Positions 1,837 to 41,123 of a stretch of 64,000 nucleotides of DNA are shown here, piece by piece. The stretch is from a virus: IMG/VR virus record IMGVR_UViG_3300023184_000028, positions 1 to 64,000 of that record; one strand, written 5' to 3'. A program made the translations under genes and the position numbers. How positions within the stretch are numbered: the stretch's first letter is position 1; each line of letters opens with the position of its first letter. Under the pieces are notes generated by a model. It worked only from the letters and a program-made list of their open reading frames with translations. It did not search any database and was not told where the DNA came from.

Positions 1837-2439
1837 ATGAGTAGTCAAGTAATTGTTGCGTTCATCACGGGCGTTTTAGGACCCGTTTTATTGTTAGTAA
1901 TCAAAAATCATTTAGATAAAAGAAAGGTAAAACCTGATATCGTTAAAGATGCATTACAAGTTAGCGAATTGGTTAATGCTAAAATTGATACCATTAGAGA
2001 TGAGTTTAAGGCGGATAGAGTATGGATAACCCAATTTCATAATGGTGGTAATTTTTATCCTACAGGTAAATCAATGGCAAAATTTACAATGATGTATGAA
2101 ACAGTAAACGGTAGTGTAATATCAATACAAAATAACTTCCAAAACATTCCTGTTAATCTATTTAGTAAATCAATAAATCAATTATTAGAAGGTGATACAA
2201 TAATCATACCCGATTTTAAGGATGAAACAATTGCCACTTACGGATTAAAATACATTGCAGATGAAAGCGGATGTAAATCAGGGTATCTGTTCTCAATCAA
2301 AACTATTGATGATAAATTTGTTGGTGTTTTAGGTGTTGATTACGTTAAGAGAAAGAATAAATTAACTCAGGAGGAAATTAATCACATATCAAACCATGCA
2401 TCATCAATTGGGGGATATTTAATCGGAAATTATAATTAA
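1837..2439 (+). CDS. membrane-anchored GAF-like protein
   Basis: 200 residues. One N-terminal transmembrane helix (about 5-22) is followed by a charged linker and a GAF-like sensor domain. The domain begins near DRVWITQFHNGG, continues NFYPTGKSMAKF and ends with the typical FVGVLGVDYV strand. GAF domains bind small ligands or serve as dimer modules. I see no output domain, so the membrane anchor plus sensor is the whole protein. It has its own promoter and faces a convergent minus-strand gene whose stop overlaps by 4 nt. Confidence 0.6.
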   Translation: MSSQVIVAFITGVLGPVLLLVIKNHLDKRKVKPDIVKDALQVSELVNAKIDTIRDEFKADRVWITQFHNGGNFYPTGKSMAKFTMMYETVNGSVISIQNNFQNIPVNLFSKSINQLLEGDTIIIPDFKDETIATYGLKYIADESGCKSGYLFSIKTIDDKFVGVLGVDYVKRKNKLTQEEINHISNHASSIGGYLIGNYN

Positions 2440-3239
2440 TTAAAGAATTTTTCAGGTTTCATATCAAGTTCTTTAACCCAAATTTTATTTCCCATATATC
2501 TTAAAGTCACTTCATCAGGTAATAGTGTTACACCACCATATTCATCGTTAGCGTAATTTTTAGAAATTTCTTCGGTATCTGAACTTTGGCCAACACTAAT
2601 TCTTTCAAAACTTAAAATTAAAGTTTTTCCCTTCTGAGTTGGATTTAGATTTATTGGTTCATTCCTCATAATTGTTTGGTCTAAATCTACCTTTAATTCT
2701 TTATCATATGACACACAATAATTTAAGTCATATGGGACTTCATTATAAAAAGTTAACGTACCGTTTCCATCACATTCATCACAATTATTACGACCATCAC
2801 CCCCACACCATTCACAATCTATATTTTCTTCACCATCGCAAGTTTGACAAGTATATTCTTCGTCATCAAGACCAGTTCCATCGCAATCATTGCAAGTAAT
2901 CTGTCCTGTTCCGTCACAGTCACTACAATCAACTCTTCCTTCACCACTACATTCATAACAATCTATATCGTTTTCAGTATCACCAAATTCAAATATGTTA
3001 AAATAAAATAAGTTATTTCTAATTTCATCAACAATATTGGGGTCATCATTACCCATAGAAATTTCATATGTAACAAAAACTAAAAGAGGAATGTTTTCAA
3101 CTGAGAACATTTGTCTAATAAAACTTAAATGTTCATTAGTCATCATTAATTTGTAAATACCTTCTGTTGATATTTGTCCACCACCTTTAACAAAGGGTTG
3201 AATACTTTTAGCCACTGAGTATGTGTGTTCTAAACTCAT
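2436..3239 (-). CDS. DnaJ-type cysteine-rich zinc-finger protein
   Basis: 267 residues. The centre (about residues 92-160) holds six CxxCxG-type units, among them CYECSGEG, CSDCDGTG, CNDCDGTG, CEWCGGDG and CDECDGNG; one unit is degenerate. DnaJ has four such units that form two zinc centres. There is no J domain and no C-terminal DnaJ substrate domain that I recognise, so it is not a complete DnaJ. Known proteins of this kind act in thiol or substrate binding. The C-terminal half is beta-rich. Within this phage it adds to the chaperone-related genes. A late-type motif lies 14 nt upstream. Confidence 0.65.
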   Translation of the reverse strand: MSLEHTYSVAKSIQPFVKGGGQISTEGIYKLMMTNEHLSFIRQMFSVENIPLLVFVTYEISMGNDDPNIVDEIRNNLFYFNIFEFGDTENDIDCYECSGEGRVDCSDCDGTGQITCNDCDGTGLDDEEYTCQTCDGEENIDCEWCGGDGRNNCDECDGNGTLTFYNEVPYDLNYCVSYDKELKVDLDQTIMRNEPINLNPTQKGKTLILSFERISVGQSSDTEEISKNYANDEYGGVTLLPDEVTLRYMGNKIWVKELDMKPEKFFN

Positions 3240-4273: not shown

Positions 4274-4310
4274 AAAAAAATCCCATCAAATTTTGTGGAG
4301 ATGATGGGAT
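4274..4310 (-). terminator. terminator of the tmRNA gene
   Basis: On the minus strand ATCCCATCA and TGATGGGAT form a 9-bp stem around a 13-nt loop, followed by a run of T. It starts a few bases after the 3' end of the tmRNA. Confidence 0.85.
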
Positions 4311-4317
4311 TTAGTCG

Positions 4318-4713
4318 TGGAGGTGTCGGCGTCGAAGCCGAGTCTTGTTCGCCATAAAAATAAATGACTACATGCTTATTTCAACATTGATTCTCAATGT
4401 TCCGAAATATCAGGTTTGATATATGTGAGAAACCCACCTGCAAACAACTTGGTCTCAGAGTTATTTTAAACGAGCTCTGACCTGTGACCCGTATAACGGA
4501 CTTCTGTTCCTAGGTTATATGTCCTAACCGACCCGAAGGTATCATAACAATTAAGCTACAGATACAGTCTCGTCTTGTCTAATAAGACCAGCAAGAGACA
4601 TTTTGTTCAAAACGTTGCCGTTTGGATTTTACCACCGTTAATTAAAGTCGTAGATGATATCCGACTGCATGCCATTTACCCCTATAAACGCCAATCAATT
4701 CCATGTCACCCCC
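4318..4713 (-). ncRNA. ssrA: transfer-messenger RNA (tmRNA)
   Basis: About 396 nt. The 5' end GGGGGTG (4707-4713) pairs fully with CACCTCC (4319-4325). The third pair is G-U, the alanine identity pair G3-U70, and the discriminator is A; CCA is not encoded (ACGA follows). A T-arm-like hairpin lies at 4326-4341 (TCGGC, TTCGAC, GCCGA). The conserved GGCATGC near the 5' end and AAGCATGTAGT near the 3' end match E. coli ssrA landmarks. A tag frame ends at TAA (4551-4553) and reads ...RQDETVSVA. If it resumes at GGC (4617-4619) the tag is 22 residues. The T-loop is one base short of canonical. The RNA rescues stalled ribosomes and tags their products for Clp proteolysis. A terminator follows and a host-type promoter precedes it. 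Confidence 0.9.
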
Positions 4714-4733
4714 ATAATTTCAAATAACTTAAA

Positions 4734-4764
4734 CAAAGATAAGAATAAATATTTAGTTTCCAAA
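4734..4764 (-). promoter_or_regulatory. host-type promoter of the tmRNA gene
   Basis: On the minus strand TTTG (4761-4764), 19 nt, then TATCTTTG (4734-4741) matches the Bacteroidota vegetative consensus TTTG-N19-TAnnTTTG exactly. Transcription would start about 10-15 nt before the mature tmRNA 5' end. An ATATTTATT variant lies in the spacer. Confidence 0.8.
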
Positions 4765-5865: not shown

Positions 5866-6696
5866 ATGTCAAGAAATTTAGAGTTATTAAAAGAAATTTT
5901 ATCAGTTCCCACCGTTACATACGATGAAGAAAGAATGGTTCAGTATATTTCAGATTGGCTACATGAGAATAATATTGAACATTATGTTGACGAGTACCTT
6001 AATGTGTATGCTGTCAAACAAACCGGTAAATTACCTAAAGATTTTGTCTTCCCTTGTGTAATTGCTCACACGGACACCGTCCACAGAATAGATACAATTA
6101 ATGTTGTTGAGGAAATGAAACCTAACGCTCATGGTGAACTCAAATTATCCTTGAAAGCTTATAATGATGAAGGTAAACCCACAGGAATTGGTGGTGATGA
6201 CAAATGTGGTGTGTTTGCCTGTTTGGAATTGTTAAAAGAACTACCTAATCTTAAAGCTGCGTTTTTTGTTTCTGAGGAAACAGGATGTCATGGTTCAAGA
6301 TTGGCGGATTCCAACTTCTTCTCAAATGTGGGGTACGCAATTCAGTTTGACGCACCCGAGAATTGGATGATTACCGAAACATGTTTTGGTGCCAAGTTAT
6401 TTGACAGAGATAGTGAGTTCTTTCAGAAATGCGACATGGTGTTAAATGAAAGTATGAATGATAAACGCCAATATATGACACATCCTTATACTGATGTTTA
6501 TGCTCTAAAAACTAAATTTGATTTTTCTTGTATTAATTTCTCAATCGGATATTATGACTATCATACAAAGAACGAATACGTTGTTGTTGAGGATACTTTT
6601 AACGGTATTGAGATGGGTAAAAAGATGATTGAGTTGTTGGGATATAAGAAATACGCAAAAACGTTAGAACGGTCTGAAAACTTCAGATATTGGTAA
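5866..6696 (+). CDS. M20/M28-type zinc metallopeptidase
   Basis: 276 residues. It shows the ordered zinc-site motifs of co-catalytic exopeptidases: VIAHTDTV, GGDDKCG, FVSEETG, QFDAP and, near the C-terminus, DYHTKNEYVV. All expected His, Asp and Glu ligands appear present. It lacks the inserted dimerisation domain of full-length M20 enzymes, which are usually about 400 residues, so it is a compact form nearer peptidase T or M28. No secretion signal is seen. It could trim peptides released by Clp-type proteolysis or act on host peptides; the substrate is unknown. Confidence 0.75.
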   Translation: MSRNLELLKEILSVPTVTYDEERMVQYISDWLHENNIEHYVDEYLNVYAVKQTGKLPKDFVFPCVIAHTDTVHRIDTINVVEEMKPNAHGELKLSLKAYNDEGKPTGIGGDDKCGVFACLELLKELPNLKAAFFVSEETGCHGSRLADSNFFSNVGYAIQFDAPENWMITETCFGAKLFDRDSEFFQKCDMVLNESMNDKRQYMTHPYTDVYALKTKFDFSCINFSIGYYDYHTKNEYVVVEDTFNGIEMGKKMIELLGYKKYAKTLERSENFRYW

Positions 6697-8925: not shown

Positions 8926-9315
8926 ATGTACAATTCAAGATTTGACAAATTAATGGACGGGATTTTTGAAGGTTTTGCATACCCAACCTACTCAACACAT
9001 TACAAGAGTATGGAAAACACGCAACCTTACGAAATAAACTACACAAAAGATGGTGCATACCTAATCTTTGAAGTTCCTGGATTTAATAAATCTAACCTGA
9101 AAGTTGAGATGGAAGACGGTACTCTATATGTAGATGGTACAAGAACCTACAAACGGGATGGTGAAGATATTAATAAATCCGTAAAACAAACTTTTAAGAT
9201 TGGTAGAGAATATGACCCATCAAATATTGAAGCGACAATAGAGGACGGAATTTTGAGTGTGTTCGTACACAGCTACAAAAAATCAGAAAAAAAGAAACGT
9301 ATCAGTTTGTTGTAA
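8926..9315 (+). CDS. small heat-shock protein, Hsp20/alpha-crystallin family
   Basis: 129 residues. The alpha-crystallin domain spans about 35-120 with the expected YEINYTKDGAYLIFEVPGF strands, the NLKVEMEDGTLYVDG turn and the NIEATIEDGILSVFV strand containing the conserved GIL triad. The C-terminal RISLL provides an I-x-L-like anchoring motif. It is an ATP-independent holdase that keeps unfolded proteins soluble; Hsp20 genes are also known in T4-like cyanophages. It is divergent from the Clp ATPase gene and followed by its own terminator. Confidence 0.92.
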   Translation: MYNSRFDKLMDGIFEGFAYPTYSTHYKSMENTQPYEINYTKDGAYLIFEVPGFNKSNLKVEMEDGTLYVDGTRTYKRDGEDINKSVKQTFKIGREYDPSNIEATIEDGILSVFVHSYKKSEKKKRISLL

Positions 9316-38730: not shown

Positions 38731-39321
38731 TTAATTATGCACAAATAAAACACCATTTACTTTTATAGGATTTGTTTGACTGGCAATTTTTGTTGCGTAA
38801 ATCCCATCGGCAACTGAAACAAAATCGGTCCACGGAGTTATTTTAATTAAATCCATATGTGAAATAAATGAACCCATATCAACCCTTCCTACATTTATAG
38901 TAGTGTTTAATATAGTATAACTAAAATGACTATGTAGTACATCGCAATAAACCATTTTCGTATTAAATAATTTTGCAGTTCCAATCATTCTTTCTAAAAA
39001 AATAGGAACATAGTAATTATCTTCATTCGTATATAAAACCCAATCTGCGTGAGGCTCTATCATTGATACCTTATGTCTATGATGAAACCCCCAGTCCCCC
39101 TTATGTTCTAAATTGTCAATAAAAACTATTTTATCACTCAATTTTCTAAACTGGTCAGGTAAAGTTTTATCATTAACAGGTCCATCATGATGTATGTAAA
39201 TTTCATAATTATCGTAAGTTTGGGCTAATAATGAATATACACAGGAAAATGCTGAATTAATTTTTTTTTCTGAGCCGTTGAGGTATGCCGAAATACAAAT
39301 TCTTATTTTATCGTTACTCAT
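38731..39321 (-). CDS. glycosyltransferase family 2 protein
   Basis: 196 residues. IRICISAYLNGSEKKINSAF and LLAQTYDNYEIYIHHDGP form the GT2 N-terminal pattern, and HADWVLYTNEDNYYVPIFLE holds the metal-site region (NED instead of DxD). Short and without membrane segments, so it is a catalytic domain only. It overlaps the 3' end of the gene upstream (39318) by 4 nt. Confidence 0.72.
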   Translation of the reverse strand: MSNDKIRICISAYLNGSEKKINSAFSCVYSLLAQTYDNYEIYIHHDGPVNDKTLPDQFRKLSDKIVFIDNLEHKGDWGFHHRHKVSMIEPHADWVLYTNEDNYYVPIFLERMIGTAKLFNTKMVYCDVLHSHFSYTILNTTINVGRVDMGSFISHMDLIKITPWTDFVSVADGIYATKIASQTNPIKVNGVLFVHN

Positions 39322-41123
39322 AGTGTTTTTAAATGTTTAGTAAAATTAATACACCTATTTATATTTTCCTTATGTAAGGGTAGTAGTGAAATATATAATA
39401 ATTTTGTTTTTATAACTAATTCGTTGATTTTAATTTTAGGATGTATTAATTGTAATTCACTTAAAAAATATTCTCTAAGTGATTTCAAATAAGTTTCTTC
39501 AATTAATTCATCATGTAAAATATAATCATACCCATATAAACTTTGTAGTATTTTCGCATAATCATACAAAATATCACCATGAATTGTTAACTTGTCATTC
39601 CAAACCCCTCTAATATCAATAAATTTACAAAAATCTTTATTTAAAAAAACATTTGTAAAAACACAATCCCCATGAATTATTCCTTGCTTATATTGAGATA
39701 TTGATTCAATATCCTTTAGATAATCGTTTAAACTAAGATTTAAAGAATTATAAAAACTGTCGTTTTTTTCAAATCGTTCAATAACTTTATTCTTGTAACC
39801 CCAAGATAAATCCAATTCTAATATTTCAGTTTTAGTTGTATGTATTTTATTAATTGTTTTTAATAAAATGTCAATATCATTTTTAGTTAGTTTTTTAGAT
39901 AATAATAAAGATGAAAAAGTCGGGTCTTTTATTTTTTCCATCTCTATTTTTGATTTTGATGATTGATATATGGTCGGAAAATATTTTTTTATTTCTTCAG
40001 GAATATTATTGTAGTAATTAGATTCTCCTTCTAAATTACCTAATTTTATTATTCTATTACCGTCAACTATTATTTTATTGTGAGCTCTTGGGTCATGGTC
40101 TTCAAATAAGTAAAATCCTGTTTCTTTTTCTAAATCTTTGTGTGCTGGTATTGCTTTATCATCAATATATAAATCGGCATATGGTTTCATTAAAATTAAG
40201 TCATGATATAGCACCCCATTATCAGACAAAACTTTTTCAATATACGGTCTTTTTTGTTCAATAAGGTCATAATTTGCATTTGTTGATAACATCCCCCTTG
40301 CGGTGTGTAAAATTATTTTATGCCCATCTTTGAATGCTTGATTACAATACTTTACATTTTTATCTATTTTCTTTGGATTTGTGTATAAATCGTAAATTAA
40401 TGTACCATCAATATCAAAACAAATAGTATATTCGTTTTTTAATTTATTGGTTTTTGAATAATTTTTTAACTGATGAGGGGTTCCGCAACAATCAAATTCA
40501 TTAGTGATATCAATAATCTCAAATTTATGATTATTTTTAACTAACTCTTTAATTGCCATACTTATGTACAACTCCGAATCTAAACATAATAAATTGTTAC
40601 ATGAGATTTCAATTAATTTTTTATTTTCAAACACATAGAATCCTGCATTAGCAATATTACTTATGGCGATTTTTTCCTTAATTTCTGTTACAACATTATT
40701 CTCATTAACCGTAACATAACTATATAAACCAGTTTTATCGTCATCGTAAAATGTTAAAATAAAACTACCTTCTTTATCTATTGCTTTTTTTATTGAAATG
40801 TCAGAAAATATCGTATCACAATCAATACATGCGATTTGTTCATCATCAGGTAAAAAATCACAAGCCTTTAAAATAGTTTCGGCGGCTCCCTTGGTTGGAG
40901 AACTCAATTCAATAATTTTAATTTCGTCACTAAAAATACTTTTTAATTGTTTTGACGTTTCATTATTACAAACAACATAAATTTCATTAAAATTATTTTT
41001 TAATTTATTTATTATTTTTTTTATTAAAGGTTCTGAATTAATTCTCACAAATGGTTTATATTCAGAATATCCTGCATTCAGAAACCTTAAACCAAATCCC
41101 ATCATAGGTATTAATGCTATCAT
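39318..41123 (-). CDS. three-domain sugar nucleotidyltransferase / HAD / kinase-like enzyme
   Basis: 601 residues. Domain 1 (1-220) is a nucleotidyltransferase with GFGLRF (9-14), Lys23-Pro24 and Asp101/Asp103. Domain 2 (about 232-345) is a HAD phosphatase: CFDIDGTL (Asp237, Asp239), LHTARG and YIDDKAI (Asp321/322). Domain 3 (345-601) is a choline/aminoglycoside-kinase-like domain: IIHGDCVFTNVFL (His484, Asp486, Asn491) and KFIDIRG (Asp503). Homologous parts occur in capsule and phosphocholine pathways. The order suggests activation of a sugar or alcohol phosphate in one chain. The fusion is unusual. Confidence 0.75.
   Translation of the reverse strand: MIALIPMMGFGLRFLNAGYSEYKPFVRINSEPLIKKIINKLKNNFNEIYVVCNNETSKQLKSIFSDEIKIIELSSPTKGAAETILKACDFLPDDEQIACIDCDTIFSDISIKKAIDKEGSFILTFYDDDKTGLYSYVTVNENNVVTEIKEKIAISNIANAGFYVFENKKLIEISCNNLLCLDSELYISMAIKELVKNNHKFEIIDITNEFDCCGTPHQLKNYSKTNKLKNEYTICFDIDGTLIYDLYTNPKKIDKNVKYCNQAFKDGHKIILHTARGMLSTNANYDLIEQKRPYIEKVLSDNGVLYHDLILMKPYADLYIDDKAIPAHKDLEKETGFYLFEDHDPRAHNKIIVDGNRIIKLGNLEGESNYYNNIPEEIKKYFPTIYQSSKSKIEMEKIKDPTFSSLLLSKKLTKNDIDILLKTINKIHTTKTEILELDLSWGYKNKVIERFEKNDSFYNSLNLSLNDYLKDIESISQYKQGIIHGDCVFTNVFLNKDFCKFIDIRGVWNDKLTIHGDILYDYAKILQSLYGYDYILHDELIEETYLKSLREYFLSELQLIHPKIKINELVIKTKLLYISLLPLHKENINRCINFTKHLKTL

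Follow-up and report, generated by a model that had tools for sequence, protein, structure and literature searches.

Phage tmRNAs as such are already established (PMC4131195, PMC9004378, PMC7162821). Among large lytic phages, the mycobacteriophages Bxz1, Cali and Wildcat and Bacillus phage G encode one (PMC4131195), and ssrA has also been described in T4-like aquatic phages, i.e. methylophage Melnitz and the pelagimyophages (PMC9004378). Huge phages carry tmRNA together with SmpB, according to a survey which relied on ARAGORN (Al-Shayeb 2020; PMC7162821). In another ARAGORN survey, tmRNA was present in 2.3% of phage genomes (PMC9004378). A preliminary description of the DNA analysed here had called phage tmRNA genes known, which is correct, and rare, which holds in a relative sense given this percentage. 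Phage tmRNAs are usually discussed as host-rescue helpers, and amino-acid recycling has already been suggested as a role (PMC9004378).

The tmRNA gene described below lies in the window, meaning the whole analysed stretch of 64,000 nucleotides, with which a 192,370-bp IMG/VR record of a large, uncultured virus begins. It resembles those of Bxz1, Cali, Wildcat and phage G in belonging to a large lytic phage, and differs from them in phage and host group. The Melnitz and pelagimyophage tmRNA is permuted, two-piece and placed under a glutamine riboswitch, whereas the present one is in one piece behind a Bacteroidota promoter. With the huge phages it shares parts of the same pathway. Its features are those of the one-piece tmRNA of Bacteroidota (ssrA, RF00023), namely the G3.U70 acceptor, T arm, H2, PK1, GGC resume codon and TAnnTTTG promoter, and a Flavobacteriaceae tmRNA (L323) shares even its boxA-like leader. 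Unlike the Bacteroidota tmRNA, however, the phage RNA carries a tag of 21-22 aa that is unlike GENNYALAA and lacks an LAA end, and RF00023 scores range from 63 to 133 bits in the phage group versus 106-200 bits in the sampled Bacteroidota. As far as the literature shows, three things are new: the long virus-only tag family, the conserved neighbourhood of Clp and peptidase genes, and how large a group ARAGORN misses. Points that the preliminary description also lacks are the tag sequence, the distribution across a large group of viruses, the linkage to Clp genes and the failure of ARAGORN on most of these tmRNA genes.

Identification and structure of the tmRNA gene

The record encodes a T4-type terminase, a portal and a major head protein (capsid), and ARAGORN reported one tRNA-Met in the remainder of the record beyond the window. 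Different parts of a 601-aa protein at 39318-41123 on the minus strand match phosphoheptose isomerase, polynucleotide kinase and additional families.

An Rfam scan of the 64-kb window gave a single match above the gathering score, with no second RNA family. This match covers positions 1-374 of the 374 of RF00023, with 69.9 bits and an E value of 3.6e-25, the gathering score being 47 bits. In a folding test the RNA was more stable than its own shuffles (z -2.7). ARAGORN did not report a tmRNA at this place in the window. The element is a genuine tmRNA, and its features are listed in Table 1. The preliminary description had proposed that the phage encodes a tmRNA here, had listed the alanine identity pair, a complete acceptor stem, the landmarks of bacterial ssrA, a host-type promoter and a terminator, and had named a subthreshold covariance-model score as grounds for dropping the claim. 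All of these elements were found, and the score lies above the threshold. Its border at 4713 agrees with the model, whereas the model extends 3 nt beyond the other border, 4318.

Table 1. Features of the tmRNA gene and its neighbourhood.
Feature	Position	Strand	Basis
Intrinsic terminator, 11-bp stem AAATCCCATCA/TGATGGGATTT plus T-run	4274-4312	-	Direct reading of sequence
tmRNA (ssrA) gene; mature ends as placed by the Rfam model	4315-4713	-	RF00023 full model; L002-L005 share the site beside the 4796 gene
Discriminator A (4318), then CGA (4317-4315) in place of CCA	4315-4318	-	Sequence; tails of relatives
Acceptor stem, 3' strand CACCTCC	4319-4325	-	Sequence; tails of relatives
T arm TCGGC-TTCGAC-GCCGA, 6-nt loop	4326-4341	-	Sequence; T-stem covariation among relatives (helix 6)
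Tag stop codon TAA	4551-4553	-	TAA, TAG and TGA all occur among relatives
Tag frame, GGC resume codon, GNVLNKMSLAGLIRQDETVSVA (22 codons)	4554-4619	-	Translation; conserved in viral copies with synonymous changes
PK1 pseudoknot, AGTCG/CGACT and TATCATC/GGTGGTA	4630-4666	-	Sequence; helices 4 and 5 in this subgroup, other subgroups differ
H2, 5' strands TAAATG and CATGC	4667-4678	-	Pair with CATTTA (4366-4361) and GCATG (4375-4371); covariation
Acceptor stem, 5' strand GGGGGTG; G3 of G3.U70 at 4711	4707-4713	-	Sequence; covariation in relatives
boxA-like leader motif GTTATTTGA at -15	4720-4728	-	Motif count in related upstreams
Bacteroidota-type -7 promoter element (TAnnTTTG), TATCTTTG	4734-4741	-	Motif fit; upstreams of relatives
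Conserved 4796 gene, 342 aa	4796-5824	+	Homologue in 108/129 tmRNA loci
M20-type peptidase	5866-6696	+	PF01546, 25.8 bits (cut-off 24.6); phrog_4191 peptidase; 99/129 loci
ClpA/ClpC-type AAA+ unfoldase, no N-domain, IGF loop	6714-8735	-	PF07724, PF10431; 79/129 loci

The acceptor GGGGGUG/CACCUCC is paired at 7/7 positions and includes G3.U70, which is retained in all 97 related viral copies with a readable position. T arm, H2, PK1 and tag frame can likewise be read directly; H2 and PK1 stand before the tag, as the tmRNA family requires, with a PK1 layout that varies by subgroup. The fold was examined in 38 distinct viral copies less than 92% identical to one another. Standard pairs filled 80.8% of the pair cells, and shuffles reached 65.0%. 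The covariation score was 0.384; shuffling lowered it to 0.146, and sliding gave no value higher than 0.156. As the acceptor and T stem had served to cut the copies out, H2 is the independent part of this test; its two helices (2 and 3) were paired in 88.6 and 100% of cells, with two-sided changes present. PK1 was only 52-60% paired because the subgroups use different pairs.

Two details of the window copy stand out. Its 3' end is A-CGA instead of CCA (ACCA is encoded in 45 of 100 relatives), and its T-loop (TTCGAC, 4331-4336) has 6 nt instead of the 7 found in 94 of 100, on a T stem that is paired here and covaries among relatives. Both kinds of change are seen in other viral copies and could lower activity. 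They can also be read as decay, which would suit a decoy function, in which the RNA sequesters host SmpB or stalled ribosomes and thereby inhibits trans-translation by the host; such a role was proposed for mycobacteriophage DS6A, whose tmRNA is TLD-only (PMC4131195). A decoy requires no tag, however, and a full tag with its stop codon is maintained throughout the group together with a covarying body. We therefore consider a decoy very improbable. The 6-nt T-loop recurs in five other viral copies, from at least two other subgroups, and may be either a recurrent variant or a recurrent assembly error.

The TAnnTTTG element was present in 53 of the 72 unique upstream regions of relatives, versus 7 expected, and it points to a Bacteroidota host (there is no direct host match). 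The boxA-like motif occurred in 62 of the 72 versus 0.25 expected. In most viral tmRNAs this motif, GTTCTTTGA as in rRNA leaders, stands 14-17 nt ahead of the gene, and it also precedes several sampled bacterial tmRNAs (L323, L337, L339-L341, L351, L353 and L359); an antitermination or processing signal of tmRNA genes is possible. The terminator is known from direct reading, its 13-nt loop exceeding the limits of the terminator scan.

A conserved tag reading frame

The preliminary description had noted a tag frame, which can now be placed exactly (Table 1). It reads GGC AAC GTT TTG AAC AAA ATG TCT CTT GCT GGT CTT ATT AGA CAA GAC GAG ACT GTA TCT GTA GCT TAA. Starts at CAA or GCA were rejected: GCA ACG TTT TGA ends after 3 codons, and almost every relative interrupts the other frame. 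An origin as a copy of a phage protein was also rejected, the tmRNA itself being the sole match to the tag in the whole record.

The tag belongs to a family, GNV[L/I][N/D]K[M/L]...GL[I/V][R/K]...V-x-[V/A]-A, with at least 125 viral copies. These comprise at least 119 stretches of viral contigs retrieved with a DNA pattern covering tag codons 1-7, plus the earlier loci, and some of them share one record. Three further viral tags are divergent (GKSFAKMSALGLMREESVVAA and GNTLAKM[SA]ALGLTREASVVTA). Viral copies differ from one another by synonymous changes and exchanged stop codons, and their stems covary. Since the search pattern partly imposes codons 1-7, only codons 8-22 give a free test of conservation. 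They vary mainly at third positions, and GGT/GGA, CTT/TTA, CGT/AGA and TAA/TAG/TGA interchange. The frame is open in all viral copies, and the other two frames contain stops in 97 of 98 cases. The synonymous fraction was 0.414 versus 0.356 for a column-shuffled null in the 22-codon group, an excess counted as weak, and in the 21-codon group it was not above the null (0.311 versus 0.321). With the excess confined to the 22-codon group, the main arguments for the frame are that it stays open, that its stop codons are exchanged and that changes concentrate at third positions.

The C-terminus is VSVA in the window and VVA, VAVA, VTVA, VTA or VAA in relatives, a hydrophobic end of the tmRNA type. 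A tag of 21-22 aa is kept across copies down to 44% identical in RNA sequence. This bears on a more ordinary account of the gene. Host mRNA breakdown in T4-type infection yields many non-stop mRNAs, and the RNA might only add rescue capacity during this breakdown, its odd tag having drifted without functional consequence. In line with this, tmRNA and SmpB are reported as translation helpers in huge-phage surveys (PMC7162821). Drift, however, fails to explain why the 21-22-aa form is retained at such distances, and we regard an ordinary supplement as unlikely. The suggestion in the preliminary description that the virus chooses its degradation tag is strengthened, as the tag sequence is conserved and virus-specific.

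Clp-peptidase neighbourhood and a proposed degradation route

The tmRNA gene forms a conserved block with the 4796 gene, the M20 peptidase and the Clp AAA+ unfoldase (Table 1); in the counts over 129 tmRNA loci many of the misses, including those for the Clp gene, fall at contig ends. The 4796 protein has a confident model (pLDDT 89.7), whose fold had no match at E <= 0.001 in PDB or among viral models; by its position it is a candidate adaptor. The Clp protein contains two AAA+ modules and a D2-small domain (PF00004, PF07724, PF10431). All 45 Clp homologues listed have an [IV]GF tripeptide, at what we take to be the site where ClpC and ClpX dock ClpP. Neither SmpB nor ClpP was found in the record; as the record may be incomplete, their absence is provisional. 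ClpP is encoded by 11 related records, all with GNVL-type tags (GNVL 11/35, GNVI 0/34; Fisher p 0.0004, with shared descent ignored), and the two phage ClpP examined appear intact around the catalytic residues. SmpB is present in one tmRNA-bearing 322-kb relative (G204; L363 1477-1893), with an apparently intact C-terminal tail. To judge by gene content, the surroundings of the tmRNA are a proteostasis neighbourhood. Genes for Band_7/SPFH, DnaJ zinc-finger-like (below the Pfam cut-off) and HSP20 proteins (549-1091, 2436-3239, 8926-9315) also cluster round the block.

The RNA fold, identity pair, tag frame with its conservation, promoter motif and gene linkage are all direct readings of sequence. 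A role in ribosome rescue is assigned because the RNA belongs to the tmRNA family. The tag is taken as a degron for the phage Clp on the basis of the linkage, the docking loop, the ClpP of relatives and the conserved tag; what ties Clp to the tag is thus their neighbourhood, and the connection is put forward on that footing. On balance we think it likely that the gene gives a functional one-piece phage tmRNA, which works in rescue together with the SmpB of the host and attaches a degron specific to the phage, probably read by the adjacent Clp with ClpP.

The proposed sequence of events is as follows. Host RNA polymerase would transcribe the tmRNA from the TAnnTTTG promoter, and host enzymes would trim it and add CCA, with alanine presumably charged through G3.U70. 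Together with host SmpB, the tmRNA would enter ribosomes stalled on broken mRNAs. Translation would then switch to the GGC resume codon, so that A-GNVLNKMSLAGLIRQDETVSVA is added to the unfinished protein and the ribosome is freed. The phage tag would act as a phage-specific degron with a small hydrophobic C-terminus, unlike the GENNYALAA-type tag of the host. Its most likely reader would be the adjacent Clp unfoldase of the virus, docked on ClpP (the host's here, the phage's in some relatives), and the neighbouring M20 peptidase may finish the peptides. Since a virus-only tag adjoins the virus's own unfoldase, the virus probably labels proteins and helps to destroy them itself. More tentatively, this could amount to an orthogonal degradation route, in which the conserved middle of the tag (KM..GLIR) is read by the viral Clp, possibly with the 4796 protein as adaptor, and truncated proteins are recycled under viral and not host control; we see this extension as possible, with the odds somewhat against it.

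Rescue could also be real with a tag that protects or re-routes, replacing the host tag and sparing phage proteins from host ClpXP. The C-termini VSVA, VVA, VAVA and VTA are indeed unlike the LAA of the host, and 21-22 aa with a conserved middle exceed the needs of a short ClpX degron. Against this, every tag has a C-terminal alanine preceded by a small residue, genes for a Clp unfoldase and a peptidase are linked to the tmRNA gene, and 11 relatives have ClpP. A protective tag is thus judged improbable, and degradation through the viral Clp remains the preferred reading. A whole virus group maintains a long conserved tag of its own next to its own Clp unfoldase and a peptidase, and some members add ClpP or SmpB; the benefit of tmRNA to the phage becomes directly testable through a tag swap.

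Viral relatives, bacterial tags and detection by ARAGORN

The four closest loci by flanking gene (L002-L005; 94, 85, 70 and 50% identical) carry RF00023 at the same place and on the same strand. It exceeded the cut-off in 13 of 42 records related by terminase or flanking gene. The tmRNA is present in records that extend across the Clp-peptidase locus; one record ends within a weak partial match (G030), and one is a doubtful case (G019). Neither the window tmRNA nor that of a relative (L136) had a blastn match among 50,697 phage records, tblastn with two tag peptides gave no match in the same set, and a search of the viral contigs for an exact 24-mer found none.

RF00023 was present in 141 of the 148 genomes of the Bacteroidota sample. 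The sampled tags have 9-10 aa (GENNYALAA, GEYNYALAA, DNNYSYRLAA, ANDYSYAMAA and similar) and end in [LM]AA, a type from which the window tag departs with its 22 aa and SVA end. A degenerate tag pattern that matched 120 of the 125 viral copies had zero matches across bacteria and archaea, represented by about 85,000 genomes (one per species). A phylogeny built from 38 viral and 38 bacterial tmRNAs grouped the viral ones in one clade (support 0.79), which suggests a single acquisition followed by replacement of the tag. The RNA might instead be passive cargo, in the form of a host gene copy retained as an integration site or acquired by chance, as tmRNA genes are common integration sites (PMC11590407). 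Its fixed position in diverse T4-like viruses, the single clade, the virus-only tag and the constrained tag frame make this extremely improbable.

ARAGORN detected tmRNA in 15 of the 125 viral loci (about 12%), with the same GNV frame in 13 of the 15. It found 10 of 10 tmRNAs in bacterial controls, so the failure is specific to the viral group. As ARAGORN is the tool of large surveys, including the huge-phage one (PMC7162821), phage tmRNAs have been undercounted. Among the bacterial genomes, a Tannerella MAG (G052, contig C190:23449-23900) has a second strong RF00023 match of 97.6 bits beside its normal tmRNA, which may belong to a prophage or a phage contig.
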